The position numbers and the translations under genes were made by a program. Below are positions 5,286-28,382 of a DNA stretch of 29,609 nucleotides, piece after piece. Location of the stretch: positions 1 to 29,609 of the IMG/VR virus record IMGVR_UViG_3300044984_001149; one strand, 5' to 3'. Within the stretch, counting starts at the first letter, position 1; each line of letters opens with the position of its first letter. The DNA is from a virus. The notes below the pieces were generated by a model that did not search any database, was not told where the DNA came from, and was given only the letters and a program-made list of their open reading frames with translations.

Positions 5286-5302
5286 GGACACGCGCACCGT
5301 TA
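5286..5302 (-). promoter_or_regulatory. shared intergenic motif, copy A
   Basis: The plus strand reads GGACACGCGCACCGTTA. Read on the minus strand, the giant gene's TAA stop is followed directly by CGGTGCGCGTGTCC. The 14 bases GACACGCGCACCGT are identical to copies B (23177) and C (25920). The core lies 50 nt before the tail fibre ATG. Its role is unknown: a phage promoter, operator or cassette boundary. Confidence 0.6.
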
Positions 5303-8300
5303 GCGGTAGCCAAACACCAGCGCGGCCGGGTTGTTGGTGGTGCCCTCCGACAGGGCCTCCGCCCCAGTGATAGTGCGGTTAGCCTGCGCCGCAGGGAGGC
5401 CGAACAGGTCGCCGATGACGTTAATCGAGGCCTTGCGGAAAGCGTCGTCGAACTCACCCTGCATCGTCTGCTTGGCAAGCTTGCCGGCGTCGGCCACCAG
5501 TCGCAGCCCCGCCGGGCCGGAGTAATCGTGACCGAAACCCTCCGCACCGATCAGCGACTTCCCTGCTTCGGCGAATTCCCGCACCACCACCATCAGGCCC
5601 ATGAGGTAGTCCAGTTGCGCCGCCGCCAATTTGCCGAGCAACTTCTCCCAGTCCCATTCGTCGTCGTCACCCCCTGGCTGCACAGCATTCTTGAGCGCGT
5701 ACCCCAGCACGGCAGGGACGACGTAGAGCAGTGCGTAGTCCGCCGCCAGCCGGGCCTTCTTGGCAGGCGTATTGGCCGCCATGGTCTTCACCACGCCCGC
5801 GTTCAGGGCCGTGTTCATAAAACTGTAGAACACGGTGAACAGCTTGACGTGGCGCTCGCGCTCGATTCCCGAGAGGTCTTTCTCCGAGCCTGACCCCTGC
5901 GCATCAATCACGGCCTGGTCGGCAAGGCTGATAGACCGATCCTCATCGTTGCCTTCGGAGAGTGCTTTCTCATAAGCCCCCTGCCAGGTCGGGAAGTCCA
6001 CCATCTGCTGGAAGCGCAGCATCAGGTAGAAGCGCCCGTTGTTGATGGCGGCGCGCGTCGCGCTTTCATCCTGCACCTGATTGCGCAGTTCGTTCAGTTC
6101 GCGGAAGCGGGTGCGCCCCCGGTTTGCCATAAAGGTGGACTTGGCGTTGACCTCCTTCGCCAGGCCCAGCGGGCTGGACAGGTAGCGCGCAATGCCGCGA
6201 CCAATCCATGGCGCGCCCACGCGCACGATGGACTGAGTGATGCCCAGAGGCTGCATGAAGGCACTCATCACGTTGAATCCCAGGCCTGCCGCACTCACCC
6301 CCTGGCGCAGTCTACTGATGGCCTGTTCACCGGCGAAGGCAACGCTGCGCCCGCCATCCGCGATGTCCTGCGTCCAGGTCTTGAACTGGTGCTTCACTTC
6401 GGGGCCGTAGTGCGTGCGAATCGCCGCATCGATGCTGTTGGAGCGCAGCAGTCTGTTGGCGTCGATCAGCCACTCATGCCAGGTCAGATCGTGGATCACG
6501 TCGTTGACGCCGGAGTACATGCCCGCGAGGGAGTACAGCAACGGCCGGCCCTTGACCTCCTCGACGCGCGACTTGGTGAAACTGCGCCGCGTGGTTGCCG
6601 AGGTGTAAGCCCCCTGCATCTGGCGCTTCGCGTCTTCCGCGCTGGCATACTCCTCCGCGCGCTGGCTTGCCCTTGGGTCAGGTCGGATTGGGTAGTAGCC
6701 GCCGCGCATCTCGATAGTGGTGCCGTCTGCCAGGGTAAGGCTGAAGGGCGAGTGTTCCACCCAGTTTGGCTCTTTGCCGTAAACGCGGCGCTCCTTGGCG
6801 GCAATCAGGGGGCGATACCCTTCGGCATGATCCCAAATCGCCTGCACGGCGCTCCACTCGGTAACCGAGAGGGATTGCAACACTGGCAGGATCTGTTCCG
6901 GTGTCCATCCCTCGCCCCCGAGCAAGCGTTGGCGGTTGCCTTCGTTGCCCCAGTTAAGCGCGACCGCAATGCGTCCCTCCCGGTTGAAACTGGTATTAAT
7001 ACTGGGGAAGAATGTGCCCTTGCCGCCCATCTTGCCGAGATTGAACACCGGGGCCAGGATGGCCGTCAGGCGTTGCGTTGCGGCTGCGCGCATGCTGACC
7101 TCCTGGTCGCCGCGCTCGTTGGCGTTACGCACCAGAAACTCCCACACCGGGCCGCCGTCCTTGCCGCCATCCATGATGCGTGCCCAGGATGAAACCTTGA
7201 CGTGCGCCGCCCAGAACTGGCGCATGCCCAGCGCCATCTCACCAATGCGCGTGGTAGGTGTGCGCGTATTCGCTTGCCGGTCGCCCGCGTGCGCGTTGAT
7301 GCTGTCCACGATCTCGTCGCGGATTGCCTCGTATTCCCGCTGGTCGCGCGAGGTCAGCAACTTGCGCTTGAGCCGGCCGAGGTGTTCGATCTGCTTGACG
7401 GTATCGACCAGTCCCCGGAATTCCTCGACGGACATCTCCTTGTAACTCTTGCGGAAGGCCTCGTTCTCCAGTTCCGGCGGAATCTCGGGATCAAGGCCGG
7501 CATCGCGCTGCGCCTCGAGCCACTTCGCCAGGGCGATGCGCTTGTCGATAGATTTCAGCGACTGCCCGCTGCGCAAGTCGAACCGCTCCAGCAAGGCATC
7601 GATCTGGTCACTGTAATCGGCGTCGATGGCCTTCCGCCCGGCGGCCGAGTCCAGGCGCTTGAAGTAGCGCAAGGCCTTATCCACTTCGGCCAGGGCTTCG
7701 TGCGCAGCGCGTGCGGCGTAGATGTTCACCATCTGGTTGCGCTTCTCGGCGGCGGCCTGGGCGATATCCCCGGCACGGTGCGCCTTGTCTGCGCCTTTGG
7801 CTGCGCGCGCTTCGGCACTGCTGTACTGGCTAGGCCGCACGTTGCGGATCTTCAGGCGGGAAATCATGCTGGCAGCGAAGGACTTCGCCGCAGCGGGCAG
7901 GACGTTGAAGCTGCGCGGCTTGCCGTTCGGGCCAACCGCTGGTTGCTTCACTTGCAACGCACGATCCAGTGCCGACAGTTCGGTCGCCACCATGCGCGCC
8001 CTGGCGTCGTTATGGATGGCCTTGTCGGCCGCGCGCTCGATGGCGTCCTGGCTGGATAGATCGCCGTACTGCTCCAGCATGCGCTGGTCGGTCATGCCCT
8101 CGATCACCGTGCGTGGATCTTCCGCATCAGCCAGACTGCGCAGCATCTCATCGCCGGACGTGAAACCGCCGATCAGGTCGGCGACGATATCGGGTTGCAG
8201 GCCTTCTTTGGCCGTCATCTTCTTGCCGTCAAGCTGCGCGCGCAGATCGTTCGGGATGCTGCTCTCCTCCAGGCGCGCGGCAGTCAGACCGGCGGGATTG

Positions 8301-11300
8301 ATGATGCCGCCGCTATTTTCAAACTCGGGCTCAAAATAACTCGAGAATTGGGCATTTCCCCGCAATTCTTCGCCGAATTTTTCCTCGAAGTCATGCAGAT
8401 CCCATTTGCCGTTCTCGTCCAGCGTTAGGTAGCCGTACTGGCTCAGAGACTCGGCCATGCCGTCGATGGTCAGTCCGCCCTCCTTGCGCGCCACAGGCTT
8501 GCCGAATACCGGGTTGTCGATCTTGTCGGTGTAGCCCCATTCAGATTTGATCTGATCGCGCTGGATGCCGCCCAGCTTGGCGATGGCGGTGAACAGAGAG
8601 TCGCGCGCCTCATCCACACTGTTGGGGTCAGTCTTAGGCCGGGCGGTTGGGTCTTTCGGTTTCGGGTTGGCCTTGCCCCAGGCCTCGATTGTTTCAGCCG
8701 CCATCGCGGCGAGGTCTTCGGCATGGTCGCGCTTGAACTTCGCGCGCGCCTTCTCCTGGGTGTGCGCCTTGCGGTATTTCGTCTGACCGGCTGGCGAGCT
8801 ATCCCATAAGGTTTTCTCGGCGTCCTTCTCGGCCTGCGCCGCCGCCGTTTTGCGCGCGGCATTCCAGGCAGAGAGTTCCGCACGGTATTGCGCCTGGGCA
8901 AGCTGCGTCGCGGTCATGTCGTCTGGCCCGAGCTTGCCGGTAAGGAAGGCCCAGGCCCGATAGACAGGCTGGCTCATCACTTCGGTGCGCACGGACATCT
9001 GCACTTCCGCGCGCTTACCACGGGATTCTTTTTGCAGGCGCTTCACCTCGCGCCCGTGGGCGTTTTTAAGCCACTGCAAATCGCGCAGGCCGCGCGCCTG
9101 GAGTTCCTGGATGGCCTCCGCAGTAGCCGCGACTCCCATGCCGTGATACGCGGCGAAGGCCTCCGGCGTCATGCCGGCCTGCTCCGGCGAGGCGAACAGG
9201 GGGAACATGCTGCGCGCTTGTTCGGCCAGGGCGATTTCCTCATTGCTCGCCAGCATGCGGTCGAATACGCCGCGCACTTCAGGATTGAGCGTGCCCGCTT
9301 CAGGATGCCCGGCAAGGAAGTCGCGCACGGATTTGTAGACGCTGGTCAACCAGGCGCGGAAGCGTTGGAAATAGGGTTGTAGTTCGATGCTGGGCGATTC
9401 ACCGCTGAACAGGTAATGCTCGAAGGATTCGGCCGTGCGTTCGTGGTAGGCGCGTTTTTCCTCGAAAGGCATGTTGTGCCACTGGTCGATCTGCGCGCCG
9501 ATGTCGCCCTGGATGCCGTGCCAGGTCATCAGGCGGGAAACGTCATCGACGATTTTCTGTTCACCCGCCGTGAGGGCCTCCGTGCGCGCTTTGACCACCA
9601 GTTGCGCCGCGACCGTGATGTCAGTCTCGAAGAAGTAGTGGCCGGATTCGTGCAGGAAGGTGGATAGATCGGCCCCCTTCAGCAAGGCCATCACCCCGGT
9701 TGCCGGGTTGAAGCTGCCGCGCGAGGCTTGCTTGTTCTGGAAGAACAGGTGGGCGAATTCGCCGATCTTCGCCGTCCTGTCGGCTTCGTTCCCCTTCGTG
9801 TAGGTCTTGATATCTACCACGCCGCGCGCACGCAGCGCATCGATGACCTTCTGCGAGGTGCCCTCCGGCACAACCGCACCGGAGAATTCGGCCAGGTCGA
9901 CCTCGCGCAGAATCTTCGCCTCGAAGTATTCCGTTGGCAGCGTCTTGAGCTTGCCCAGGAAATCCGCGACGTTCTGCTGCACGTCACTCGGCACGTTCTC
10001 GAAGCCGTTCTCGCGCAAAGCGCGCGGCAGGCCCATCGTGGCGGCGTCGTACATCATTTGCGAGGTTGAGTCGGTGAAGCTGAATTCCCGGCCGTTGGGG
10101 TGGTAACTGCTCAACGACGAGGTAAGCGAGTCAAACTCTTCGCCGATCTCCTTCTTGACCGCATCGAATGCCTTCCCGTCGATCAGCCGGCCTTTTGCTG
10201 CGCGGATTTGCTCGATGCTTTTGAACTGCGGGGTGTACTTCGAGCGGATCGTGCCCACTCCGTAGTTGAAACCCTCCCCTCCGCGCAGTTCCTTCTTCAG
10301 GATCTTGACCACGTTGTCGAGCGTGTGCGGCGTATACCGGCGATTGCCCGAGTCGGTGAACCCTTGGAAGATTCTTTCCGTTGCGCCGATGGCGGCAAAC
10401 TTGCCATCGACATAGTCATCAAACTCCTGCGTCAGGTTGCCTCGTATCTGGGCGCGCAAAGCGTCCCGCGTCTGATAGTCGTCAACCGTTGCGGGCGCGT
10501 TGACCTTCTTCATCTGGTACGCATATTTTACGGATGCGTTTTTTGGATGCTTTTCAAGGTCGGGGATCAGGCTTTCCAGCCCCGCCTTTTTGTATTGCTG
10601 CGACAAGTCGGCGACGACTAATGCCTGGAACTCAGGATTCCACATCAAGTCCTGATGGTCTTGCATGCCGAAAAACTTCTCGAAGCCTGCGTTGACCAGT
10701 CTTCGCCGTTCGTTGGCGTCAAACGCTGGCTGCATGACGATGTCGGGTGTGATGTTCTTCTCGGTGAGGAACTGCCACATCACGGCGGGGGAATTGATTA
10801 GGGCGCTGCGCCCGCTAGACTCAAATTCATCCAGATCGATCCTGCTGCCTGTTTCCTGCTCGCCCTGCTTGAACTCGGCTACCAGCGTGCGCGCTTGCTT
10901 ATCCGTTGTTTTGTAGTTCACCTTCGGGTAGCGCGGCGAGTAGATGTCCGCCCCGAAAACTTGCGCCTTGGCATACCCCTTCGGGTCAACCATGTCTTTC
11001 GAGCCGAGCAGGGTGATTTCGCCAAACCCGTGCAGGGGGTTGTCCTTCTGCGCCACGGCCAGGGAGGGCACCGCAATGCCGCCCATCTTGACGGCGTGCA
11101 GCAGGTTGTCTGCCGTCAGGTTGTGCTGCACCAGGAGGTCGGCGACCTCGCCCTGGTAAAGCACGCCGCCGGTGTTTAGTCCTCCGGGAACATATCGGCC
11201 AGCATCGCTCGCGTTTCCGGTTCCTGGCTCAGATCCGGCTCGCTTGTCCCGTAGTTCAGGGAAAGCCACGCCGCTTTCGTAACTGGATGCCCCAGCTTCA

Positions 11301-14300
11301 GGAGCATCTGCACTGTCGGGTCGTACTCCCACCCAGGCTGGATCTTTGAACCCGCCGGCAAGGTCAACGATTTGTCTGATGGTGTCGTCATAGGTCTGCT
11401 CTCCTGCATGGTATTTTACCCAAATATCGCGCACCTGATTGACGTTGTCCTGGTTCGCCTTGAATGACGGACTGAACAGTGACCGGATGGCCTCCCACGA
11501 AATCGACTGCATTTCGCGCGGGCGCACCCCCCTGGCTTCTGCGGCGCGCTTCACCGCTTCCGCGTATAACCAATAAGTGCCGTTCAGGCCTTTCGTGCCA
11601 AGGGACTTGGTGCCGGTGCCACCGAAATTCTGCTCCACCTCAAGCGCATACGCCCCCAGCGGCAAGAACAGATTGGCCGCGACTTGGTGGGTGTCGCTGG
11701 TGACGAACGGATGCTCGGAATCCGGCGCATAGATGTTGTTGTAGAAGTTGCGCACCTTATGCTCTTTTCCGAGCATGTGATGGACGTTGTCAACCGATCC
11801 ATCCCGATAGATCGAGATGGCTTTTGCGATGGGGTTGAACGACTTCCAGGCGAGGGAATCGTCCTTGACGCCGTCGTCAAGCTTCACGTTGCCGAGGAAC
11901 CCTCCCTCTGGCGTAACGTCGCGGAAGGAGCGGGGGTTGTGCGCCTCATCGTAGGCGCGCACGAACCAGGCGCGCGCAAAGTCGTCGGTGAGTTCGTTGA
12001 GCTTCTTGCCGCGCACTCTGTCCTGCACGGCGACATTCGGGTCGATAACGGCGGCCGATTCCTGCTTCTCGATCAAGGCCTTTTCCGCCTGGCGCACGAC
12101 CGTCTGCGCCTTGCGCACGTCGGCCTTCGCCTTGCGTAGATCGGCGACCGTGTCGTTGCGTTTGGAATCTTCTACCCCGACGGCCTTTTCGGCCTTCGCC
12201 ACGGCGCTCGCCGCCGCTTTTGTCTCGCGTGCGGCCCCGCCTTTTTCCGCCAGGCGCAGCGCCACCTTCGCATCCCGCAGCGCCGACTTCAGGTCGAGCA
12301 GTTTGGCGTCATGCGCCGCCAGTTTGACTTCCGTCTGGGCGCTGACCTTGTCCAGCGTGACCTGCGCCTTCGGCACGGCCTTCTGTACCCGCGCCAGTTC
12401 CTTGCTGGCCTCCTTGACCGCAGCCGCCTTCCTGGCTGCCTCCGTCTGGCGGCTCTCCTCCGAGTTGGTCATCCAGTCGGTTGCCCACTTCTCCATGTCG
12501 GCGTCCCAGCGGTAATCCTGGCGATGCGCCAGGATGTCGTTGATGCGCTCGACATAGGAGACATTCATCCGCCAGTCCGTCTGCGGCGAGGTGACCGCAA
12601 GCTGCGCCGCCGCCTGCATGGGTGTCAGGCCGTAGCGTTTGGCAAACGCCAGCGAGATTCTGTTTGCGCCGTCGTACCACAGGCGCGACCGCTGCCGGAT
12701 GTCCTCGCTGAGTGAGTCGAAAATGGAGTGCAGGTTGCGCACCATCTGCGTGATGATCGACTCCGCGCGTTCGTGCGGGGTGGCTCCCTCCGCGTTGATC
12801 GAGTCATAGCCGCGCTTTTCTTCCTTGGCGACGGTTTGCGTGTGCTTGTTGAAAAGCGCCGTGTTCTTGTCCAGCGCCTCCTCGCCACCTGGCGCGGACG
12901 CTTCGGTGTAGCCAGGCACTTGCACCAAATCGTGGTCGGGCACGGTTCCCTTCACGGTGGGCACCATCGTGGTGAGGGGCTGAAACAGCGTCTTGCCCGT
13001 GCGGTCAAGGTAGGCAGGGCCGTCACCCGGAAGATTGCCAATTTCGCCGAAATACAACGCGCCAGACTCACGATGCTCGAGCGGCATGGCCGTGCCGAAA
13101 TTGTCGCCCACTGGGGTGGTTACCTGATCCAGCCCCCGCCCACCGTCTAGCCCACTAGATGGCCCGCGCCGAACGGCGAGCGTCAGGCCGTTGTCGTTGG
13201 CAAACTTCTGGAATCTAGCGGGAACACGGACGCGGGCCGGGCCGGTAACGACGGCGCGGCCCTCTTCATCGACGCGGAAGGTGATGCCCTTCTCGGGCGC
13301 TTCGAGTCCTGCGGCTGCACGTCGTAGATCGCGCAATGCGGCCCCGTCGATAGGCAGGTTGTTAGGGGTGTCAGGTTGTACTTCATAGTCTGATTGTAGA
13401 TGGCTGGACTGCGGGTTCCCGACGTTCTCCGCAACCACCTTGAGCATGTGCCGCTGGAAAAATGCCTCCGGGGTGATGCCCAGGTCTGCCGCGCGCACGG
13501 CGGCATAGCTGGAAATCAAGGTGGCGTTGGCCTCGTTGACTGCCGGTGTGAAGCGGTTGGTGGTGTTCAAACTTTCCAGCAAGGTTTGCTTGACGGCGTT
13601 GCGACTGGTTGTAAAAACCTCATCGACTTGCTTATCCGTCAGCAGTTTTTCGATGTCGCGTTGCAGTGCCTCACCCTGCGTCTGCATGTACTCTTGCGCC
13701 TCCGCACGGGTGAACCCGTCGGGGTCTGTGCGCACATGATCGATCAGGCTTTGACCGAGTTCAGTCGGGGCGACGCGCGCCGCGTATTCCTCGACGGGGA
13801 TTGCGATCTGCCCGCCCGATGCGATTGCGTGGTCAAACTGCGCGGCGGCAGAGGGCGAGGCCTTGATTAGCTCGCCGCCCAGACCGGACTGCATCAACGT
13901 CCCCGCATCGATATACACATCGCGCACGGGGCCATCCTCCGCTGCGAGGGCGATGAACTGCTCAAAGCTTTGCGGGTCGCGCGCCAGCGTCTTGCTGGCC
14001 GCCGAGGCCTCGCCCAGCTTGCCAAGTAGTTCGGCGCCCTGATCGGCTTTGTCGGCTTTTATCTGCCCACGGTTCGCAATGCTGCCTATGCCCTTCAGGA
14101 CGGTAACCTGCCCGCCGACGCCGACCAGTGTCGCCACCAGGGTCTGAGTGAACGCGTCTGGGCGGGCATCTGCGTAGTCTTTTAGCGTCTTCTCCGGGTG
14201 GAGAACGGCCCACTCATTTAGATCTTGCAGCAGGGTCGCCACCTGTTCGCCGGGGATTTCCCTCATTGCCTGGTTGGCCAGCACCTTTAGCAAAGATGCC

Positions 14301-15262
14301 CCGGCGAACAGGTCTTTCAGCAGCACGTTAACCGGGTTTTTCTCGGTGAAGTACTCCACCATCGCCTGCACTGCCGCGAAGTTAATCGATGTCAGCACCC
14401 CGCGCCCTGCATCGCTCGCATCACCATATGACTGGCCGTACACCGTGCCGGTCATGGGGGCCAACGCCATGCTCGGGTTCCCCGTCACTACGGCGAGCGG
14501 CAGCGTCACAAGGTTTTGGCCGAGGGATTGCAGCCCCGAGTAATAGCCCGCCACAATCGGGTCATCGCTTTGCGTCATAAGCTCGTTTTTCAGGGCCTGC
14601 TGCGCGTGCCTTTGTGCGGCGAAAAACTCCGACGCGCGCGCTGCCGGGTCTTCAGGCAAAAGCGAGCCCACCAGGGGGCTAGTGATGCTCGACACTGTAT
14701 CGGAGACACTCTGCAACGCGCCCCATACACTCTCGTTTATCAAGGGTGCGCTGGAGGCGAAAGCGCGCAGGCTATTCTCCACCGGGCCGCGCGCGCCTTG
14801 CTTGGCATCCCGCAGCGCCTGCGCGCTCTCTGCCAGACTGTCCAGGTAGGCGTTGGTCTGCTGCGTGCGCCGGCGTTCGGCGGCCATGTAGTCGGCGGAG
14901 GCCTGCGCGAAGCCGTAACCCTTTCGCAATTCCGGGACGGGCGTTTTCTTGAATAGGGGGCTCTCGGCGATAGGCCCGAGTGTGGCGAGGTCATCGTGTG
15001 CGACTCGCAGGAAGTTCGGGTCTTCGGTGTGCTTTGCCAGCGACGGGAACAGGTTCAGCAGTTCGCTCGCCTTGTTGCCGTTGGCGATGGCCTGTGCCTC
15101 GGGCGTGCGACCCATCACCGTCGGAATGGGCAGCCCGGTCTGCCGGGACAGGTTCAGCGTATTCGCAAACTGGTCGGGGTTTGTGCCCGTCGTTGCGCGG
15201 ATGCGCGCCAGTGCACGTTCGTGTTCGTCATCCCGCGCAAGAAATTCTTCAAAGCTGCCCAT
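5300..15262 (-). CDS. giant large polyvalent protein (3320 aa) with HExxH metallopeptidase, in the T7 gp16 position
   Basis: This is an unbroken 3320-residue reading frame in the class of large polyvalent proteins of phages. In order (numbers from the ATG at 15262): an N-terminal region with hydrophobic patches (about 225-270 and 375-400), an Ala/Lys/Glu-rich coiled coil (about 940-1080), a DUF7178-like domain (KVRNFYNNIY near 1170, VTSDTHQVA near 1195), a domain with VPSLAVAQ and FGEITLLG (about 1395-1425), a zinc peptidase with HESGHYFFE (His1871, Glu1872, His1875) and a probable third ligand in HERTAESFEHYL, and an LPD38-like domain (from about 2885). A hydrophobic segment lies near 3185. 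Position after gp14- and gp15-like genes suggests an internal virion protein ejected with DNA, perhaps countering host defences. ATG 15262 forms a TAATG overlap with a good AAGGGG site; ATG 15280 is weaker. Confidence 0.9.
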   Translation of the reverse strand: MGSFEEFLARDDEHERALARIRATTGTNPDQFANTLNLSRQTGLPIPTVMGRTPEAQAIANGNKASELLNLFPSLAKHTEDPNFLRVAHDDLATLGPIAESPLFKKTPVPELRKGYGFAQASADYMAAERRRTQQTNAYLDSLAESAQALRDAKQGARGPVENSLRAFASSAPLINESVWGALQSVSDTVSSITSPLVGSLLPEDPAARASEFFAAQRHAQQALKNELMTQSDDPIVAGYYSGLQSLGQNLVTLPLAVVTGNPSMALAPMTGTVYGQSYGDASDAGRGVLTSINFAAVQAMVEYFTEKNPVNVLLKDLFAGASLLKVLANQAMREIPGEQVATLLQDLNEWAVLHPEKTLKDYADARPDAFTQTLVATLVGVGGQVTVLKGIGSIANRGQIKADKADQGAELLGKLGEASAASKTLARDPQSFEQFIALAAEDGPVRDVYIDAGTLMQSGLGGELIKASPSAAAQFDHAIASGGQIAIPVEEYAARVAPTELGQSLIDHVRTDPDGFTRAEAQEYMQTQGEALQRDIEKLLTDKQVDEVFTTSRNAVKQTLLESLNTTNRFTPAVNEANATLISSYAAVRAADLGITPEAFFQRHMLKVVAENVGNPQSSHLQSDYEVQPDTPNNLPIDGAALRDLRRAAAGLEAPEKGITFRVDEEGRAVVTGPARVRVPARFQKFANDNGLTLAVRRGPSSGLDGGRGLDQVTTPVGDNFGTAMPLEHRESGALYFGEIGNLPGDGPAYLDRTGKTLFQPLTTMVPTVKGTVPDHDLVQVPGYTEASAPGGEEALDKNTALFNKHTQTVAKEEKRGYDSINAEGATPHERAESIITQMVRNLHSIFDSLSEDIRQRSRLWYDGANRISLAFAKRYGLTPMQAAAQLAVTSPQTDWRMNVSYVERINDILAHRQDYRWDADMEKWATDWMTNSEESRQTEAARKAAAVKEASKELARVQKAVPKAQVTLDKVSAQTEVKLAAHDAKLLDLKSALRDAKVALRLAEKGGAARETKAAASAVAKAEKAVGVEDSKRNDTVADLRKAKADVRKAQTVVRQAEKALIEKQESAAVIDPNVAVQDRVRGKKLNELTDDFARAWFVRAYDEAHNPRSFRDVTPEGGFLGNVKLDDGVKDDSLAWKSFNPIAKAISIYRDGSVDNVHHMLGKEHKVRNFYNNIYAPDSEHPFVTSDTHQVAANLFLPLGAYALEVEQNFGGTGTKSLGTKGLNGTYWLYAEAVKRAAEARGVRPREMQSISWEAIRSLFSPSFKANQDNVNQVRDIWVKYHAGEQTYDDTIRQIVDLAGGFKDPAWVGVRPDSADAPEAGASSYESGVAFPELRDKRAGSEPGTGNASDAGRYVPGGLNTGGVLYQGEVADLLVQHNLTADNLLHAVKMGGIAVPSLAVAQKDNPLHGFGEITLLGSKDMVDPKGYAKAQVFGADIYSPRYPKVNYKTTDKQARTLVAEFKQGEQETGSRIDLDEFESSGRSALINSPAVMWQFLTEKNITPDIVMQPAFDANERRRLVNAGFEKFFGMQDHQDLMWNPEFQALVVADLSQQYKKAGLESLIPDLEKHPKNASVKYAYQMKKVNAPATVDDYQTRDALRAQIRGNLTQEFDDYVDGKFAAIGATERIFQGFTDSGNRRYTPHTLDNVVKILKKELRGGEGFNYGVGTIRSKYTPQFKSIEQIRAAKGRLIDGKAFDAVKKEIGEEFDSLTSSLSSYHPNGREFSFTDSTSQMMYDAATMGLPRALRENGFENVPSDVQQNVADFLGKLKTLPTEYFEAKILREVDLAEFSGAVVPEGTSQKVIDALRARGVVDIKTYTKGNEADRTAKIGEFAHLFFQNKQASRGSFNPATGVMALLKGADLSTFLHESGHYFFETDITVAAQLVVKARTEALTAGEQKIVDDVSRLMTWHGIQGDIGAQIDQWHNMPFEEKRAYHERTAESFEHYLFSGESPSIELQPYFQRFRAWLTSVYKSVRDFLAGHPEAGTLNPEVRGVFDRMLASNEEIALAEQARSMFPLFASPEQAGMTPEAFAAYHGMGVAATAEAIQELQARGLRDLQWLKNAHGREVKRLQKESRGKRAEVQMSVRTEVMSQPVYRAWAFLTGKLGPDDMTATQLAQAQYRAELSAWNAARKTAAAQAEKDAEKTLWDSSPAGQTKYRKAHTQEKARAKFKRDHAEDLAAMAAETIEAWGKANPKPKDPTARPKTDPNSVDEARDSLFTAIAKLGGIQRDQIKSEWGYTDKIDNPVFGKPVARKEGGLTIDGMAESLSQYGYLTLDENGKWDLHDFEEKFGEELRGNAQFSSYFEPEFENSGGIINPAGLTAARLEESSIPNDLRAQLDGKKMTAKEGLQPDIVADLIGGFTSGDEMLRSLADAEDPRTVIEGMTDQRMLEQYGDLSSQDAIERAADKAIHNDARARMVATELSALDRALQVKQPAVGPNGKPRSFNVLPAAAKSFAASMISRLKIRNVRPSQYSSAEARAAKGADKAHRAGDIAQAAAEKRNQMVNIYAARAAHEALAEVDKALRYFKRLDSAAGRKAIDADYSDQIDALLERFDLRSGQSLKSIDKRIALAKWLEAQRDAGLDPEIPPELENEAFRKSYKEMSVEEFRGLVDTVKQIEHLGRLKRKLLTSRDQREYEAIRDEIVDSINAHAGDRQANTRTPTTRIGEMALGMRQFWAAHVKVSSWARIMDGGKDGGPVWEFLVRNANERGDQEVSMRAAATQRLTAILAPVFNLGKMGGKGTFFPSINTSFNREGRIAVALNWGNEGNRQRLLGGEGWTPEQILPVLQSLSVTEWSAVQAIWDHAEGYRPLIAAKERRVYGKEPNWVEHSPFSLTLADGTTIEMRGGYYPIRPDPRASQRAEEYASAEDAKRQMQGAYTSATTRRSFTKSRVEEVKGRPLLYSLAGMYSGVNDVIHDLTWHEWLIDANRLLRSNSIDAAIRTHYGPEVKHQFKTWTQDIADGGRSVAFAGEQAISRLRQGVSAAGLGFNVMSAFMQPLGITQSIVRVGAPWIGRGIARYLSSPLGLAKEVNAKSTFMANRGRTRFRELNELRNQVQDESATRAAINNGRFYLMLRFQQMVDFPTWQGAYEKALSEGNDEDRSISLADQAVIDAQGSGSEKDLSGIERERHVKLFTVFYSFMNTALNAGVVKTMAANTPAKKARLAADYALLYVVPAVLGYALKNAVQPGGDDDEWDWEKLLGKLAAAQLDYLMGLMVVVREFAEAGKSLIGAEGFGHDYSGPAGLRLVADAGKLAKQTMQGEFDDAFRKASINVIGDLFGLPAAQANRTITGAEALSEGTTNNPAALVFGYR
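11176..11391 (-). CDS. nested small gene inside the giant gene, another frame
   Basis: A 71-residue frame lies wholly within the giant gene in a different frame of the same strand. Its ATG at 11391 is preceded by AGGAG nine bases upstream, a good ribosome binding site. The product looks like a true folded protein rather than a shadow: PGWEYDPTVQMLLKLGHPVT, then KAAWLSLNYG and an acidic end (RAMLADMFPED). It recalls small bacterial and phage proteins with the 'P-V/L-T-x-x-N/W-(Y/W)-L-x-L-x-Y' pattern. The overlapped part of the giant protein (residues about 1291-1363) is a Gly/Ser/Ala/Pro-rich linker of low constraint. Its function is unknown. An alternative in-frame ATG at 11409 has no comparable site. 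Confidence 0.55.
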   Translation of the reverse strand: MTTPSDKSLTLPAGSKIQPGWEYDPTVQMLLKLGHPVTKAAWLSLNYGTSEPDLSQEPETRAMLADMFPED

Positions 15263-16932
15263 TACTTCAACCCCTTCCATTGACGGTATTTGGCCTGGAT
15301 TTCTTCATCGGTCGGTTTCTTTCCGCGCTTTTCAAATGCGGACATGATTTCGCGCAATTCGATTTCCGGGATCTTGATCGGTAGCGCCTTCCGCTCCTCC
15401 GGGGTGAGCTTGTAGCCGGGTGTGTTGCTGCGGAGCATGCCGGGATTGCGTAGGAGGATCAGATCGTCAAGGATGTTTTTTCGGATGGTGTAGTCCACCC
15501 GCTCACCCGCGTCGATTTTTGCCTGAATGGCGGTGTGGGCAGCCTGCGTGAATGCTGCCTGTTCGGCCGCGCCCTTGATCGTCTTGCTGTAACTGGATAT
15601 TTGCTGCGACTCGTTTGCCGCCTCGGCAGATTTCTTCTTGCCGGAACGTAAATCACCCCGGAGCTTGATGAAAGTCTCGCGGTCGGCCTGGTCGAGCTTG
15701 GCGAAGTAGGGCGCCAAGTCCATCTCGGCGAAGGCCTTCGGATCATCGGAGTATTTGTTGTATAGATCCTGGTAGACCTCCGGGTTGGTCTTGCTGGTTC
15801 CGGCGCCAGCGATGGCCCGCAGTTCGCGCTGGTGGGTATCGTAATAGTTCTTCAACTCGGCTTTTTTGCCGTCCGAGAGCCCACGGTATTGCTCACTTGC
15901 ACCGACGGTTTTCCAGGCCTTGCCCTGTTCCACCAGTAGCCTCCCGGAGCCATATAGCTTTTCATCTCTTTCGGCGTTGGCAAGCCGGTCGTAAGTCTGC
16001 CGGCGGTGTAGTTCCTCCTCCGCCCCCCTGGCGAGCTTTCCATCTTTCACTGCCAGGATGGTCTTCATCGCTGCGCCATAGTCACCGTTCGCGCCCGCCA
16101 GCGCGGTGTTGACCAGGTCGAACGCGCGGGTGTCCAGGCTGGATTCCTGGACGGCCTTGCGCAGCGCATCCTGCTTTGTCGGGTCGATTTCCTTGATGTG
16201 GGCGGTGAAATACGCGGCTGCCCCTTCTGGATTGTTTCGGCTTAAAAGGTCGGAGATGACATTGGCGTGCGCAGCGGTGGTGCCCGTGAGGACGTACTGC
16301 TTGCTGCTGTCGGTTTCGGCGCCACCGAGGCCTTTTAGCTGCGCCTGCTGCTGTAATTCATGCAGGAAAGTGGCGTGCGCGACGCCGAACTGGCTGCCGG
16401 TTATGGATGCCCCGGCGGCGTTGACCACCATGTCCTGGGCAAGGCTGGAAGCGCGGGCAAGGCTTGCTGTCTCGCGGAAGGCGACAACCTGCGCGCCGGT
16501 ATGCTCATCGATCTTGTTCAATGCGGCCTGCCGACGTGTGGCGGATACCTTGCTCCACAATTCTCGCTGGGCGTCGTTCTGCGCGTCTTTCTCGATGGCC
16601 TTCTGGATATCCTGCACGCCGCTCACTGCGGCATCCCGGCGAGAGATGGCGTCCGCGCCCTTGGCTGCCAAGAAGCCTTTCTCCGGGTCGTACAAACCCG
16701 CACGGATAGCATCGGCGTATCGCGCGTCCATCGTGGAGACTTGTGCCTCGTTGATGGTGGCCTGCATGTCGGCGGCCTCTTTAGCCAATGTCGATCCCAC
16801 GCTTTGCAATCCCTGGCCGAGTTGCTGCGCGACCTTGCCGGCGGTGTCAGGGAGTAAAGGCGCGCGCACTTGCACGTCGGGCGAGGCCGTCGTTGTGGCC
16901 TGGAAGTTGTCGTAGGTTGGGACTTTTGGCAC
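15262..16932 (-). CDS. internal virion protein, T7 gp15-like position
   Basis: This mostly helical, Ala- and charge-rich protein (556 residues from GTG) lies between a gp14-like gene and the giant protein gene. That is the place of the T7 internal core/ejectosome protein gp15, and its length (gp15 about 750) and composition are compatible. It has long helices (SGVQDIQKAIEKDAQNDAQR, NAERDEKLYGSGRLLVEQG) and no membrane segment. It probably sits in the capsid or tail and enters the cell with the DNA. Start choice is not straightforward: TTG at 16938 overlaps the upstream TGA, but GAAGGG abuts that TTG with no spacing. The GTG at 16932 lies six bases after GAAGGG and is preferred. Assignment rests on synteny, as the sequence itself is poorly conserved. 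Confidence 0.7.
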   Translation of the reverse strand: MPKVPTYDNFQATTTASPDVQVRAPLLPDTAGKVAQQLGQGLQSVGSTLAKEAADMQATINEAQVSTMDARYADAIRAGLYDPEKGFLAAKGADAISRRDAAVSGVQDIQKAIEKDAQNDAQRELWSKVSATRRQAALNKIDEHTGAQVVAFRETASLARASSLAQDMVVNAAGASITGSQFGVAHATFLHELQQQAQLKGLGGAETDSSKQYVLTGTTAAHANVISDLLSRNNPEGAAAYFTAHIKEIDPTKQDALRKAVQESSLDTRAFDLVNTALAGANGDYGAAMKTILAVKDGKLARGAEEELHRRQTYDRLANAERDEKLYGSGRLLVEQGKAWKTVGASEQYRGLSDGKKAELKNYYDTHQRELRAIAGAGTSKTNPEVYQDLYNKYSDDPKAFAEMDLAPYFAKLDQADRETFIKLRGDLRSGKKKSAEAANESQQISSYSKTIKGAAEQAAFTQAAHTAIQAKIDAGERVDYTIRKNILDDLILLRNPGMLRSNTPGYKLTPEERKALPIKIPEIELREIMSAFEKRGKKPTDEEIQAKYRQWKGLK

Positions 16933-19821: not shown

Positions 19822-19822
19822 G

Positions 19823-22200: not shown

Positions 22201-22215
22201 TGTGTTGCTCCTTGG

Positions 22216-22839
22216 TTATGAATAAAGGCGATCCGCCAGGGATTTCCCGTTCGGTGAACTGGGCTTGCCCCCGACGAAGGTGTCGTCACTAATTGCCGCG
22301 CCGGCCTTGACCAAAAACCGGATTACATCCGGGTGATTGCCGAGGCCTGAGTCGTTCAGCAGTGTGCGCAGTTCAGGTGTACCGAAAGCGCCGAGGGCCT
22401 TCTGCGCAGTAGCCAGGGATGTTTTCAGCTTGTCGCCGCCAAAATCCTTGTCCGCGCGAGATGCCTCTGCCCACGCCGCATGCGCCGCTTCGATCTGTTC
22501 GGCCTGGCGTTGCGCCAACGCCGGGGCGATCTTGTCGATGACCTTCTGCGCCGCGTCCTGCGGCAGGTTCAGTTCCTTGGCTACTTCGGCAAACTGCGCG
22601 ATGACGTGCGGATCGAATTCGCGGCCCTCCGGGGCGGTGAATTCATATTTATCCGGTGCGCCTGCTGGTTTGCTTACCTCGCCGTCCGGTGAAGACTTTT
22701 CGCCTTCGCCGTTGGGAACTTCGCCCGCCTGCTGCGTGCCTGCTGCCTCCACGGCGGCTTGCGCGCCCGCCGTTGCAGTGGCTTGACTAGAGTCGGCATC
22801 AGGGGAACTTGCGCCTTCCATAATCAGGGTGTCAGTCAT
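22216..22839 (-). CDS. head scaffolding protein
   Basis: This 207-residue acidic, Ala/Gln/Glu-rich protein lies just upstream of the capsid gene. The first 70 residues are disordered-looking (SSPDADSSQATATAGAQ). Then a predicted helical region (YEFTAPEGREFDPHVIAQFAEVAKELNLPQDAAQKVID, read in pieces) precedes a coiled stretch (PALAQRQAEQIEAAHAAWAEAS) and a C-terminal helix near GNHPDVIRFLVKAGAAISDD. Such proteins of BPP-1/epsilon15-like phages are sometimes called endoproteases, but I see no catalytic motif, and scaffold is the more likely role. The gene overlaps the previous one by 8 bp and has AGGAG nine bases before its ATG. Confidence 0.8.
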   Translation of the reverse strand: MTDTLIMEGASSPDADSSQATATAGAQAAVEAAGTQQAGEVPNGEGEKSSPDGEVSKPAGAPDKYEFTAPEGREFDPHVIAQFAEVAKELNLPQDAAQKVIDKIAPALAQRQAEQIEAAHAAWAEASRADKDFGGDKLKTSLATAQKALGAFGTPELRTLLNDSGLGNHPDVIRFLVKAGAAISDDTFVGGKPSSPNGKSLADRLYS

Positions 22840-23149
22840 GTTTAACTTGCTCCTGTTCTTGCACCATAGCGGCGTAGAGGTTAGGCCCCGCCGTGTGGAT
22901 CTGCGCCATCAGCATGAGGCCCACGTTTCTCATTCCCTCTCGGAAGTAGGTTTCTGAGTTACCCGTGAACGAAGACCGATAAACGCCGGTTCGCTCTAAC
23001 AACCGCCACACAACTCGGCGGCCCCGCTTGCTGCTCATCAGCCACTTGAAATCGTCCAGTTCGATTTGCGCTGCCAGTTTGTCGCGCGATGCCGCATCGG
23101 CTTGCGCGTTCTCCTGGCTGCGTAGATCGAGGGGGTCGTAGTGGCTCAT
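22832..23149 (-). CDS. Bbp19-like phage protein
   Basis: This 105-residue protein contains the conserved core of the Bbp19-like family: FKWLMSSKRGRRVVWRLLE, then RTGVYRSSFTGNSETYFREG and MRNVGLMLMAQI. The family is found in BPP-1 and many other tailed phages, always near portal and scaffold genes; its job is not known. It is helical and basic, without membrane segments. It follows motif copy B, whose core lies 30 nt before the ATG, and it overlaps the scaffold start by 8 bp. No ribosome binding site is found at the normal distance: GGAGG lies about 20 nt upstream of the ATG, and a TAG stop in between rules out an extension. Confidence 0.8.
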   Translation of the reverse strand: MSHYDPLDLRSQENAQADAASRDKLAAQIELDDFKWLMSSKRGRRVVWRLLERTGVYRSSFTGNSETYFREGMRNVGLMLMAQIHTAGPNLYAAMVQEQEQVKHD

Positions 23150-23174
23150 GGCTGAATGCTATGCGCGGGCCTCC

Positions 23175-23196
23175 GAGACACGCGCACCGTCAATCA
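23175..23196 (-). promoter_or_regulatory. shared intergenic motif, copy B
   Basis: The plus strand contains GACACGCGCACCGT at 23177-23190, identical to copies A and C. On the minus strand the upstream gene's stop (TGA) is followed by TTGA and then CGGTGCGCGTGTC. The core lies 30 nt before the ATG of the Bbp19-like gene, the same spacing as copies C and D. Confidence 0.65.
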
Positions 23197-23475
23197 GTAG
23201 CAGGCGAAGACGTTGCCGGCGGCAATGGTGGTGCCGGTGGCGAGGATGCGGCTGGCGCGGATGTACTGCACGCCGAACCATGCCGCGCTAATTGCCAGGG
23301 TGACGGTCGAACCGGCCGCCGTGACGAAGGTGATGTTGCCGGCTGCGGTGAAAATCATCGCGCGGCAGGTTCCCTTGGTCAGGTCGGCGCCATCCGCCGG
23401 GGTGACTGACACAACGTCATTCAACGGTGTGAAGTCGTTGCGGTCGTTGATGAAGGGGGTCGGTGCGGTGAGCAT
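23194..23475 (-). CDS. small spike-base-like virion protein
   Basis: This 93-residue beta-rich protein ends in a pattern (VQYIRASRILATGTTIAAGNVFACY) close to that of proteins named after the gene transfer agent spike base RCAP_Rcc01079. The start of the domain (FTPLNDVVSVTPADGADLTKG) and middle (AMIFTAAGNITFVTAAGSTVTLAIS) fit as well: a small beta-barrel with an 'N-G-T/TATGTT' end. In this phage it lies directly behind the portal gene, so it may be a head-completion, decoration or portal-associated protein. The homology is judged by eye only. AAGGAA lies eight bases before ATG. Confidence 0.6.
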   Translation of the reverse strand: MLTAPTPFINDRNDFTPLNDVVSVTPADGADLTKGTCRAMIFTAAGNITFVTAAGSTVTLAISAAWFGVQYIRASRILATGTTIAAGNVFACY

Positions 23476-23493
23476 GGTGTAGGTTCCTTGTGG

Positions 23494-25164: not shown

Positions 25165-25166
25165 CT

Positions 25167-25463
25167 TCAGCCGCCTAACAGGGTATTTTTGCCGAGGGAA
25201 AGGGCGTTTGGATCAACGCCCTGCGCGCCTGTCAGCATGGTGCCGGACGCGCCGAGCTTGCCGGATTGCTGCGCGGCAGACAGGATCGCCATGGTGTCGG
25301 GCTTCTTTTGGTTGGCGCGGTTCAGCGCCTGGCTGGCAGCGTCTTCCTGCTTCAGGGCGTTGGCATTAGCTAGCCTCTGCGCTTTGTCTTGCGCGTTGGC
25401 CGACCGCTCGCCGCTATAGATGGTGTAGGCCACTGCTGCGACGGCCGTTATGACAAAAGACAT
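25167..25463 (-). CDS. small virion-region protein with N-terminal hydrophobic segment
   Basis: This 98-residue protein begins with a hydrophobic stretch (MSFVITAVAAVAYTIYSGE), which could be a membrane anchor or signal-like segment. Then come a charged helix (RSANAQDKAQRLANANALKQ), an Ala/Gln-rich middle, and a Gly-rich end (GKNTLLGG). Similar small proteins are found before portal genes in podoviruses, and their function is not known. The start at 25463 is set by AGGAGG six bases upstream; the longer in-frame version from 25694 lies antisense-like within the cupin gene and is not credible. It overlaps the cupin-like gene by 16 bp and ends 2 bp before the portal start. Confidence 0.7.
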   Translation of the reverse strand: MSFVITAVAAVAYTIYSGERSANAQDKAQRLANANALKQEDAASQALNRANQKKPDTMAILSAAQQSGKLGASGTMLTGAQGVDPNALSLGKNTLLGG

Positions 25464-25891
25464 GCTGCCTCCTGATTGGGTAGTTCGACTTGGCGAGTCT
25501 GGAGTCGGTCGGATTCGGAGGTCGCGGCATCCTCGATGGCGCTTATGTCCGTTGAGTCGGTTGCAACCAGCGTTGTCCACCAGGTATCGGAATGCGCGAA
25601 GCCAACCCGCTTTTGCCCAGCGCAGGCAGGAATGGTGTGGTATCCGGTCAGGCGTACCACCTCGGCGCCGGAGGTGACAGTGATGTCCCCGCACACGATG
25701 CAGATGTTGTCGGAATTCAGCATGGCCCCGGTTAGCATGGTTCCCGCCGGTATATGCACCGTTCGCGCGTACAGGCCCCCATGCACAAGGTGCTTCGCGG
25801 CGAGGGCAATCTGAGGGCGCTGCGCGAGCATCCCCTCAACGCCAACCGCCCAATCAAGGGCCGAGGCGAGTGCTGTAAGCTTATCCGTCAT
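25448..25891 (-). CDS. cupin-like phage protein
   Basis: This 147-residue protein has the beta-rich pattern of a small cupin: ARTVHIPAGTMLTGAMLNSD, NICIVCGDITVTSGAEVVRL, GYHTIPACAGQKRVGFAHSD and TWWTTLVATD. His46 (HIPAG), His84 (GYHTIP) and His100 (FAHSD) are candidates for metal ligands, but the classical two-motif cupin spacing is incomplete. Similar proteins lie between terminase and portal genes in related phages; whether they are virion parts or enzymes is unknown. A copy of the shared motif (C) lies before its ATG. The last residues overlap the next gene. Confidence 0.65.
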   Translation of the reverse strand: MTDKLTALASALDWAVGVEGMLAQRPQIALAAKHLVHGGLYARTVHIPAGTMLTGAMLNSDNICIVCGDITVTSGAEVVRLTGYHTIPACAGQKRVGFAHSDTWWTTLVATDSTDISAIEDAATSESDRLQTRQVELPNQEAACLLS

Positions 25892-25918
25892 GCCGCGAAC
25901 CCTACCCCTAGCGCGTCA

Positions 25919-25935
25919 GGACACGCGCACCGTCA
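25919..25935 (-). promoter_or_regulatory. shared intergenic motif, copy C
   Basis: The plus strand reads GGACACGCGCACCGTCA; on the minus strand the terminase TGA stop is followed at once by CGGTGCGCGTGTCC. Fourteen bases are identical to copies A and B. The core is 31 nt before the ATG of the cupin-like gene. Confidence 0.65.
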
Positions 25936-27447
25936 GGCGTAGGGGTCGTAGTCCATCCCGCGTGTGCGCTTGTCCATGCCAAAGAAGAGCCCGCGTTTAG
26001 GAGTGTCCATCAGCGCCAGGATGTATGCGCTGCCGTAGTCGGGTGAGCGACCTATGCGCTTGACGATATCCTCGCGGCTGGCGACGTACACCAGGCTGCC
26101 GACCAGTTCCCAAGTGGGCGCGCAGAGATCCGCAAGCAGTCGCGGATCTGGCGGCAGACAGATGCCCGTGTTGTTTACCGGGTCGAGCGCCTCCCGCATG
26201 CGCCACCACAATTCGCTGCGCAGATTGCGGAAGCGCAACCGGCCGGATCGGTCGGTGCCCGTTGGGGCCTCCGACACATTGACGCCGACGACTTGCTGGC
26301 GCGCCTCCATCAAGAAGTCGTATGGACTGGCCCCCACGCCGATGACATCGATGTGGATCACGGCCTGGTCGCGCGAGGCGCCCATCGTCAAGCCGGCGAC
26401 AACTGGGCCGTCAGGTGTGGCCTTGCCGGGGTATGCCAGGGGGATGTCGAACCACATGCCGTGCCGCCGGCCGAGGATAGTCTCGTCTTTGCCGCCGCGT
26501 GCTACGTCCACGCCGATTGAGTCCATCGGCGCGAGCTTGTCGGGCCGCGTCCATCTCGCCTGCGCGGCCTCAACCCACGCCGTCGGGATAACCTGCCAGG
26601 GGTCGTCCTGCACTCCCGCCTGGAAGTCGCCATAGAGCATTTGGGAGCGCAGTGGCTCCGGCAGGGATTGCAGAGTAGCCATGTAGCCGGTTCCGGTTAG
26701 GTAGGGGTTGTCGCTGACCCGTGACGGAATGAACGTGCGCGACATAGGGGTGACCAAGTCACCACCATGGCGGAACGGCGACCCATCGGATAGCTCGACC
26801 TCCTTGCCGTCCAGCATTGCGTACCAGCGCAACTCGCCGGGTTGAGCGGGGTTGGGGTGCTTTGGATCTAGCCATGGCGCGAAAAACGCCACAATCCATC
26901 GCCCTTCGGCACTGGTCGGAGGGTTGAACGTCAGCAGGGCCTGGCACCGCTGTCGGGCATCGACCGAACGCAGCCAGCCGAGGAGCGCGCGCACCTGGCT
27001 CTCCAGGAAGTTGGCGGCCTCATCGAACACCAGGAGATCGTGCGGGCGCCCCTGGTACTTGTTCCAATCGTCGAGGTTGGGCGTCGAGCCAAACTCGATC
27101 TGCTTGCCGGGCAGGCGCCATATCCGTTCGGCACCGTTGTATCCGTCCCGCGTGCCGAGCAGTTCGGTGAAGCGGTCAATGATGCCGGTTAGCTGGGTCG
27201 CCTCTCGGCGCAATACCAGGACTTTCTGGTGTTGGGTGAGCGCCTTACCACACGCTAGATCCGTCTTGCCTCCCCCTGCCGCGCCGCCGTAACCAATGAT
27301 GTCCGCGGTGGACAGGTAGGCCACTCCTTGGGGGCCTGGGAGGGGGCGCCAGAGGGTTCTGTCTGCTGTGATTAGTTCGTCTATCTCCGCTAGCTCTTGC
27401 GGCGATAGATAGGCCAGCAGGGCAGCGTCAAACGTAGTCGGCAACAT
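25933..27447 (-). CDS. terL: terminase large subunit (packaging ATPase-nuclease)
   Basis: This 504-residue motor drives DNA into the head and cuts it. ATPase motifs are seen in order: Walker A GYGGAAGGGKTD (about 52-63), Walker B LLVFDEAA (138-145) and the coupling motif LLTFNPPT (171-178). The RNase H-like nuclease domain shows acidic residues at IGVDVARGGKDET (Asp314, Asp321), IHIDVIGVG (Asp367) and RSPDYGSAYILA (Asp470). The order and length are normal for a Terminase_6-type large subunit. It overlaps the end of the small subunit by 20 bp, and an AAGG directly before the ATG is poorly spaced, so translation is probably coupled. Motif copy C includes its stop codon. Confidence 0.95.
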   Translation of the reverse strand: MLPTTFDAALLAYLSPQELAEIDELITADRTLWRPLPGPQGVAYLSTADIIGYGGAAGGGKTDLACGKALTQHQKVLVLRREATQLTGIIDRFTELLGTRDGYNGAERIWRLPGKQIEFGSTPNLDDWNKYQGRPHDLLVFDEAANFLESQVRALLGWLRSVDARQRCQALLTFNPPTSAEGRWIVAFFAPWLDPKHPNPAQPGELRWYAMLDGKEVELSDGSPFRHGGDLVTPMSRTFIPSRVSDNPYLTGTGYMATLQSLPEPLRSQMLYGDFQAGVQDDPWQVIPTAWVEAAQARWTRPDKLAPMDSIGVDVARGGKDETILGRRHGMWFDIPLAYPGKATPDGPVVAGLTMGASRDQAVIHIDVIGVGASPYDFLMEARQQVVGVNVSEAPTGTDRSGRLRFRNLRSELWWRMREALDPVNNTGICLPPDPRLLADLCAPTWELVGSLVYVASREDIVKRIGRSPDYGSAYILALMDTPKRGLFFGMDKRTRGMDYDPYA

Positions 27448-27886
27448 CCTTGCGCATCTGCGCCGCCGCCAGGATGGCCGCGATCTTGGCGGCTCGATCC
27501 GTGTCGGTTATCTCGACCGCGCCGCCGTCTGCGCCGGTTAGCTCCATCCGGGCATTGTCGCGGTATTTCGCCGGGCGGTGCGCCTTGAGCAGGAACATGC
27601 TCAGAACGTCGGAGTGCTTGCGCACCTCACCGCACTGCTCACCCTGGTGATAAATCGGCTCAAGCACACCCTCGAAGGCGCGGCGATGCACCTCATCCTC
27701 CAGCGCGGTGATGCCGATTTCAAGCGCACGTTCCCACGCCGCTGCGAACTCGGGGTCGTCGCGCCGCCAACTGTACGCCGCGTTGCGGCTGATGCCAGCG
27801 CCTTCAAGCGCGCGCATCACGATGCCGGTTTCGGCTAGCACCGCGCAGAAGGCGATGGCTTTTTCTGGTGTCCTAATCGTTTCCAT
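27428..27886 (-). CDS. terS: terminase small subunit
   Basis: This 152-residue protein recognises phage DNA for packaging. The N-terminal part is a helix-turn-helix (CAVLAETGIVMRALEGAGISRNAAYSWRRDDPEFAAAWERAL, seen as overlapping pieces) in the pattern common to phage small subunits, followed by an oligomerisation helix (EVHRRAFEGVLEPIYHQGE) and the conserved SDVLSMFLLKAHRPAKYRD. The last 40 residues are Ala/Asp-rich. It is read first in the packaging cassette and overlaps the large subunit by 20 bp. Motif copy D lies between it and the upstream HTH gene, with its core 30 nt before this ATG. GAGG lies about 12 bases upstream, a slightly long spacing. Confidence 0.85.
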   Translation of the reverse strand: METIRTPEKAIAFCAVLAETGIVMRALEGAGISRNAAYSWRRDDPEFAAAWERALEIGITALEDEVHRRAFEGVLEPIYHQGEQCGEVRKHSDVLSMFLLKAHRPAKYRDNARMELTGADGGAVEITDTDRAAKIAAILAAAQMRKDVADYV

Positions 27887-27911
27887 ACACGAACATTACC
27901 TCGCCGGGGTG

Positions 27912-27929
27912 CCAGCACGCGCACCGCTA
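27912..27929 (-). promoter_or_regulatory. shared intergenic motif, copy D
   Basis: The plus strand reads CCAGCACGCGCACCGCTA. The minus-strand TAG stop of the HTH gene is followed at once by CGGTGCGCGTG, sharing 11 core bases with copies A-C. The core lies 30 nt before the terminase small subunit ATG. Confidence 0.6.
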
Positions 27930-28160
27930 GACACCCGTGCACTGTGCCCGGCGGGTGTAGCGGCAGATATCCCGCACGGTGTGCCTCGAAACGCCCAGTG
28001 CGGCAGCGATACGCCGGTAGCCCATGCGATCTTGCTCGTGCATTTTGCGTATCAACTCAACCTCATGGTCGGTAAGCACCGCGCCAGGGTGAGACTCACC
28101 AATCAGGTTGCCGTTGGCATTCACCTGCCGGCGCGTATTTTTTACAGATTCATCCTTCAT
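27927..28160 (-). CDS. small helix-turn-helix DNA-binding protein
   Basis: This 77-residue basic protein ends in a helix-turn-helix of the resolvase/homeodomain-like type: YRRIAAALGVSRHTVRDIC then RYTRRAQC. The preceding AVLTDHEVELIRKMHEQDRMG fits the usual lead-in helix. It lies alone between the repeat-rich gap and the terminase genes, flanked by motif copies D and (at a distance) E, so it is a candidate regulator of late genes or a DNA-binding helper of packaging; this is inference. The start at 28160 is preceded by AGGGGA at good spacing. A longer in-frame start at 28322 would run through the repeat region and give an unnatural Cys/His/Pro-rich sequence, so it is rejected. Confidence 0.75.
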   Translation of the reverse strand: MKDESVKNTRRQVNANGNLIGESHPGAVLTDHEVELIRKMHEQDRMGYRRIAAALGVSRHTVRDICRYTRRAQCTGV

Positions 28161-28220
28161 GCTGTTTTCCCCTGTTTGCAATAAATCACGTACACAATCC
28201 AAACCGCACTTTGAAAACCG

Positions 28221-28320
28221 GCACGGCGGCACGGCACACTCACCCCCTAAAGGGGGGTCGTGTGCTGTGCTCGTGTGCCAGGCACAGTGCCGGGCACAGT
28301 GCCCGGTGTGCCGGTGTGCC
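28221..28320. repeat. repeat-rich non-coding region between two HTH genes
   Basis: In the 220-bp gap 28161-28379 lie dense short repeats. GGCACAGTGCC occurs twice (28281-28291 and 28293-28303). The perfect palindrome arms CCGGGCAC and GTGCCCGG flank one A (28290-28306). GTGTGCC occurs three times (28273, 28306, 28314). CCCCC and GGGGG arms surround TAAA (28243-28256). The set can fold in many ways. It has no T-run typical of terminators. It may be a set of operator sites for the nearby HTH proteins, an origin-like iteron array beside the replication ATPase, or a packaging recognition site. Confidence 0.6.
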
Positions 28321-28362
28321 AAGCTTTTTCTGCACGTTCACGAATCCGCGCCATTGGCAATT

Positions 28363-28382
28363 CCGCACGCGCAACGCATTCA
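28363..28382 (-). promoter_or_regulatory. shared intergenic motif, degenerate copy E
   Basis: The plus strand has CGCACGCGCAACGCATTCA, so on the minus strand a TGA stop is followed by ATGCGTTGCGCGTG. It matches the core in 10 of 11 positions. It comes right after the first HTH gene, as the other copies come right after their upstream genes, but lies about 205 nt before the next ATG. Confidence 0.4.

Follow-up and report, generated by a model that had tools for sequence, protein, structure and literature searches.

Putative late promoters in a BPP-1-like phage and a small helix-turn-helix protein that probably reads them

The window, by which we mean the whole stretch of 29,609 nt that was analysed, is a viral contig of 29.6 kb from a BPP-1-like phage (a Rauchvirus relative), with packaging and head genes homologous to those of BPP-1 and in the same order. 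BPP-1 serves as the model phage in work on diversity-generating retroelements. The shared gene order is terS, terL, short tail fibre, portal, Bbp19, protease, capsid, tail genes, giant gene and tail fibre; the Bbp19, protease and capsid families were recognised in the window, and its TerL has 62.7% identity to BPP-1 TerL over 98%. Five minus-strand genes concern us here. A 77-aa helix-turn-helix (HTH) protein, the ortholog of BPP-1 bbp27, is encoded at 27927..28160 and is followed by the terminase small subunit gene (27428..27886; phrog_4044, 9.8e-35). A short tail fibre-like gene (25448..25891; phrog_12032) and a Bbp19-family gene (22832..23149; PF25181, 1.1e-19) come next, the latter heading a unit with the protease and the major capsid protein. 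The fifth gene, at 3560..5239, encodes a 559-aa protein without a Pfam match, which by its position relative to the BPP-1 bbp9 site is the equivalent of the tail-fibre gene bbp9. The giant gene (5300-15280, 3,326 aa) is about the size of BPP-1 bbp10 and bbp11 combined and more. Among the relatives, Limnohabitans phage DC33 (PQ492659) is filed under Inoviridae, yet its gene content is that of a 39-kb tailed BPP-1-like phage.

Four sites on the minus strand of the window, each in a real gap between genes as the original prediction had it, share one bipartite pattern: GGTGCGCGTG, then exactly 17 nt, then TAnnnT, a sigma70-type -10 element. Site D (27893..27925) has the box GGTGCGCGTGCT at 27925-27914 and TAATGT at 27898-27893, 6 nt from the TerS ATG at 27886. 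Sites C (25899..25931), B (23156..23188) and A (5266..5298) all have the box GGTGCGCGTGTC. In C it lies at 25931-25920 with TAGGGT at 25904-25899, 7 nt from the ATG at 25891 that opens the first gene of its unit, the short tail fibre-like gene; in B at 23188-23177 with TAGCAT at 23161-23156, 6 nt from the Bbp19 ATG at 23149; and in A at 5298-5287 with TAACCT at 5271-5266, 26 nt from the ATG at 5239 of the 559-aa gene, where a Shine-Dalgarno sequence is present. The distance to the start, noticed earlier as nearly constant, is thus 6-7 nt from the -10 element in B, C and D, and longer in A. Searched as TGCGCGTG-N17-TAnnnT, the window yields 4 matches, A to D, and all are minus-strand sites; dinucleotide shuffles give an expectation of 0.01. 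The plus strand has none.

The original prediction rested on a recurring 14-base motif at five gene ends. The exact 14-mer does occur at 5287-5300, 23177-23190 and 25920-25933 (A, B and C) and nowhere else in the window, and D (27914-27927) carries its core, with 3 mismatches to the 14-mer. On its own the 14-mer would be weak evidence, since a loose search allowing 3 mismatches finds 10 copies where 7.1 are expected, which is chance level. The second element, TAnnnT at the fixed 17 nt, had been missed. Judged by it, four of the five sites stand and site E (28366..28377, minus strand) falls: it has CGGATT at the -10 position, with no TAnnnT and no close gene start behind it. A copy in coding sequence near 6217, dismissed earlier as probably chance, also has no -10 element, nor do the coding copies at 5139, 17741 and 24968; all four were rejected.

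A TTGACA-like -35 element at 16-18 nt is absent from A-D, which have 0-1 of its 6 bases. The sequences support reading A-D as late promoters in which a box of 12 bp, lying at about -39 to -28, takes the place of the sigma70 -35 element, followed by an exact spacer and a TAnnnT -10 element.

The same arrangement is found in relatives. BPP-1 has it at three orthologous junctions, before bbp24, bbp19 and the tail-fibre gene bbp9; its site at 24130 is the ortholog of site C and that at 6183 the ortholog of site A, and a further BPP-1 promoter is at 20745. Controls were the late strand versus the other strand, and reversed patterns; the pattern T.C.CGT was dropped, as it matches conserved coding sequence. 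Across 25 genomes or contigs the pattern occurred 58 times on the late strand versus 3 times on the other, with a bimodal distance from -10 to ATG, 31 sites having 5-8 nt and 17 having 24-29 nt. The picture was the same in another 30 records, of which 18 had matches and in which the reversed control matched only twice; these genomes mostly had 2-5 sites each, all on one strand. Of 74 nonredundant regions upstream of bbp19 orthologs, 68 have the box. When these are aligned on the box alone, -11 is A in 64/68, -7 is T in 62/68 and -12 is T in 52/68, and the box lies 39-41 nt from the ATG in 60/68; this alignment is free of the selection by score that partly determined the -10 A and T in an earlier one. 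Over about -39 to -28 the consensus reads GGTGCnCnTACC. As in the window, the relatives have no sigma70 -35 element, and TGn (extended -10) appears in only 2 of 56. Some relatives have the HTH protein and no recognisable site, among them Acinetobacter phages: prophages L339, L342, L345 and L384 keep the HTH family (helix ISHEM..RICN) and show no recognisable box before bbp19.

Within nearly every genome the box is uniform, and between phages it differs: TGCGCGT in the window, TGCCCGT in BPP-1, and TGCACGT, TGCACTT, TACCCGT or TGCGCAT elsewhere. A contig (G028, behind locus L131) has boxes with C, G and A at the variable base together, and two promoter-like sites 49 nt apart. A palindrome in the box (GGTRCGCGYACC) is only partial, is not retained in BPP-1 or the window, and was set aside.

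These variants bear on the other reading offered earlier, that the motif is a recombination boundary between cassettes, a repeat placed at gene ends by chance. Short identical repeats at gene junctions would suit it, as would the stop codon that abuts the box; the latter was indeed seen in A, C and D, but it is a by-product of tight packing, and both its distance from the box and the stop codon itself vary among relatives. The boundary reading is unsupported because the box changes between phages, at the same junctions, while the promoter geometry stays exact; a boundary repeat would also leave the fixed -10 spacing, start-codon distance and orientation unaccounted for, and we give it almost no credence.

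The -10 elements lie very close to the start codons. At site B the distance is 5-8 nt in 56 of 56 nonredundant starts, of which 54 have no Shine-Dalgarno sequence, and it is at the ATG behind the -10 element that the conserved N-terminus of Bbp19 (such as MSNYDPTDLRSQ) starts. With the -10 element only 6-7 nt before the ATG, the mRNAs from B, C and D are probably leaderless, and the Bbp19-family gene of the window is predicted to be translated in this way. A constant distance to the ATG could also mark a translation element at gene starts, like the start-associated sequences (SASs) of mycobacteriophages. Those cover the ribosome-binding site, 3-7 nt from the start (PMC3203893), whereas the present box is ~39 nt upstream of the ATG; the second class of sites has 24-29 nt between -10 and ATG with the box to -10 spacing unchanged, and the site-B starts lack a Shine-Dalgarno sequence, so that a translation element is hardly credible. 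SASs and stoperators are similar in being short repeats in one orientation at phage gene starts (PMC3203893), but no fixed -10 partner has been described for either.

The tail-fibre promoters (the A class) usually lie inside a strong predicted hairpin, at 5240-5300 in the window and L084:6120-6183 in BPP-1. By predicted folds, read-through RNA forms a hairpin around the -10 element in 11 of 13 genomes (exceptions G017 and G033), at about -20 to -30 kcal/mol, whereas RNA beginning at the predicted start folds at 0 to -3.6 kcal/mol. In the window the hairpin (5257..5285, minus strand; z -2.8, about -28 to -29 kcal/mol) encloses both the -10 element and the point at which promoter A is predicted to start. 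In most genomes the Shine-Dalgarno sequence is part of the 3' arm; in the window it is just outside the stem. In BPP-1, with U5 after the stem, the hairpin may double as a terminator of read-through. Gene e of T4 has a late promoter inside a hairpin that masks the ribosome-binding site, which only late transcripts expose (PMC3014915). The A-class promoters are alike in usually lying within such a hairpin, and differ in the gene served (tail fibre), the promoter type and, for the window, the Shine-Dalgarno sequence outside the stem.

The best candidate for a protein that reads the box is the 77-aa HTH protein. In 228 of 241 loci its gene precedes terS by no more than 300 nt. It matches Pfam HTH_38 (homeodomain-like HTH) above the cutoff, at 29.3 versus 27 bits; other matches are HTH_23 and similar families and, weakly, Sigma70_r4, and there is no recognisable activation domain among Pfam families. 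An AF2 model of modest confidence (pLDDT 74.5) is a three-helix HTH with R63 and D64 in the third helix, where 59-66 is the recognition helix. Structure searches gave generic HTH matches only (best Foldseek E 0.14, VIA Z 5.9), including IS21, Tc3 and resolvase proteins and sigma region 4, and so the fold leaves the mechanism undecided. BPP-1 bbp27 (L084:26337-26573) is annotated in RefSeq as 'endonuclease'; by sequence its product looks like a DNA-binding regulator. In the window the 219-nt gap before the HTH gene (28161-28379) is rich in GTGCC/GGCAC repeats and has a CCCCCCTTTAGGGGG inverted repeat; it is possibly the regulatory region of that gene.

The recognition helix of this family varies in step with the box. 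The variable box base, p6, was compared with the columns of several late proteins, as a control for shared ancestry, and its best partner each time was HTH residue 64 (column 58; D64 in the window): it ranked first among 1,180 columns on mutual information and first among 1,058 in distance-matched pairs, with an odds ratio of 10.3. On a tree built from TerL, portal, TerS and Bbp19, p6 changes on 20 branches and residue 64 changes too on 17 of them, the best result among 932 columns (p = 3e-11; the parsimony p treats branches as independent, and the ranking is the control); the next column, also in the HTH protein, had 3.6e-5 and the best column outside it 2e-3. In the nonredundant set G accompanies D in 18/19, C accompanies K in 9/11 and A accompanies GR in 10/10. 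This rule was fixed before later loci were retrieved, and held in most of the new viral loci and prophages of named bacterial genomes; in the prophages D went with G at 5 of 5 well-scored sites (two nearly identical), GR with A once and AK with C once. Exceptions are L139 (AK with A), L142 (AR with G) and L325 (DK with A). A simpler rule of R with A fails outside GR (AR-G, KR-C, RR-C, WR-C). Aspartate plausibly reads the cytosine opposite G, and lysine the guanine opposite C. The sequence of a relative aligns without gaps to sigma-E region 4, with TVRD on TVRS, and S172 there touches the -35 element of sigma-E at base -34 (PMC6713349); p6 falls at -34 if the transcription start is counted 7 nt after the -10 element, a match that is supportive only, as numbering conventions differ between promoters. 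At p4 an association with HTH residue 63 was seen, based on 8 loci. The HTH protein was not singled out at p8, p10 or p11; for p5, p8, p10 and p11 the best columns are mostly in portal or TerL, so that a read-out at these positions is inseparable from shared ancestry and was rejected.

Since the box changes in step with one of its residues, the 77-aa protein is probably the reader, and of the HTH proteins first suggested as binders it is the one that the co-variation favours. Fixed-spacing bipartite geometry is also typical of sigma factors, and a host alternative sigma factor might read the promoter, the HTH co-variation being incidental. We regard this as very improbable: the -10 element is of sigma70 type, the box tracks a phage residue better than any other of 932-1,180 columns, and related phages have different boxes at the same junctions.

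That the motif is a phage-specific promoter, as first proposed, is borne out by the fixed -10 spacing, the strand bias, the conservation in BPP-1 and relatives and the co-evolution with a phage protein at the level of single residues. We consider it quite likely that these are late promoters, 3-5 per genome, at which the Bbp27-family protein is an activator that replaces the sigma70 -35 contact. The protein would be made at the end of the early or lytic transcript; its recognition helix would bind the box and recruit host RNA polymerase, host sigma70 supplying only the -10 contact, and it would so switch on the packaging, head and tail-fibre units, with D driving terS and A the 559-aa gene. 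At B, C and D transcription would start at the ATG or at most 2 nt away, giving leaderless mRNA. At A-class promoters it would start inside the hairpin; read-through RNA would form the hairpin, hiding the ribosome-binding site in most relatives, and RNA begun at the promoter would not.

We infer activation rather than repression because the promoters have no -35 element of their own and the HTH gene, within the lytic unit, stands first in the late region. The protein might instead read the box and repress, the sites being stoperator-like or Cro-like operators that keep the late genes off. The box does cover the -35 region, a frequent repressor position, and the missing activation domain would fit; but with neither a sigma70 -35 nor an extended -10 element the promoters lack the means for unaided activity, and a gene just before terS in the lytic unit is where an activator is expected. 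To our knowledge L5 stoperators are not tied to a -10 element. Repression is therefore unlikely, if less so than an alternative sigma factor.

An activator that replaces the -35 contact is the arrangement of MotA, and here the co-evolution of p6 and residue 64 pairs the box at the -35 position with a DNA-binding protein of the phage. T4 middle promoters are served by sigma appropriation, with a MotA box centred near -30 and a need for AsiA (PMC6755090). There, too, sigma70 reads the -10 element and a phage protein recognises a box standing in for the -35 element (PMC6755090); the present box is centred near -33.5, and the HTH is a different small one, with late genes as targets and no known AsiA-like partner. 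C of phage Mu, a Mor-family dimer bound beside or over -35, is the late activator of lys, I, P and mom (PMC4461284), so that there, as proposed here, one small phage activator serves four late promoters with poor -35 elements; the window protein matches HTH_38, not Mor. Its Pfam matches (HTH_38, HTH_23 and similar) include neither a MotA nor a Mor domain. The mode would resemble that of MotA and Mu C, with membership by sequence in neither family, and the residue-to-base signal is unusually direct.

Xpf of PBSX is a phage sigma or sigma-like factor. The 77-aa protein, with a single HTH, no region 2 and a host sigma70-type -10 element at its sites, differs from phage sigma factors, and for its size and missing region 2 cannot be a complete sigma70-family factor; its sigma matches are to region 4 only and below cutoffs (sigma70-ECF), with a weak match to a 'positive control sigma-like factor' model. 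Gp47 of phage 7-11 is comparable as a phage-encoded specificity factor with a bipartite late promoter set (PMC8948821). More tentatively, and with doubt outweighing belief, the 77-aa protein could be a detached sigma region 4 that displaces region 4 of sigma70 both from RNA polymerase and from the DNA at -35. If true, promoter specificity would have two sources, host sigma70 for the -10 element and a phage mini-protein for the -35 position; the residue-to-base code would be readable and the late mRNAs leaderless.

In the open-access literature we found no report on how BPP-1 late genes are switched on, on the role of Bbp27 or on Rauchvirus promoters. The present analysis supplies putative late promoters for BPP-1, names bbp27 as the likely regulator and predicts which HTH residue reads which box base. 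The many natural pairs of box and HTH protein would offer a collection from which orthogonal promoters could be drawn, and the leaderless starts raise the question of how leaderless virion genes are translated in Proteobacteria.
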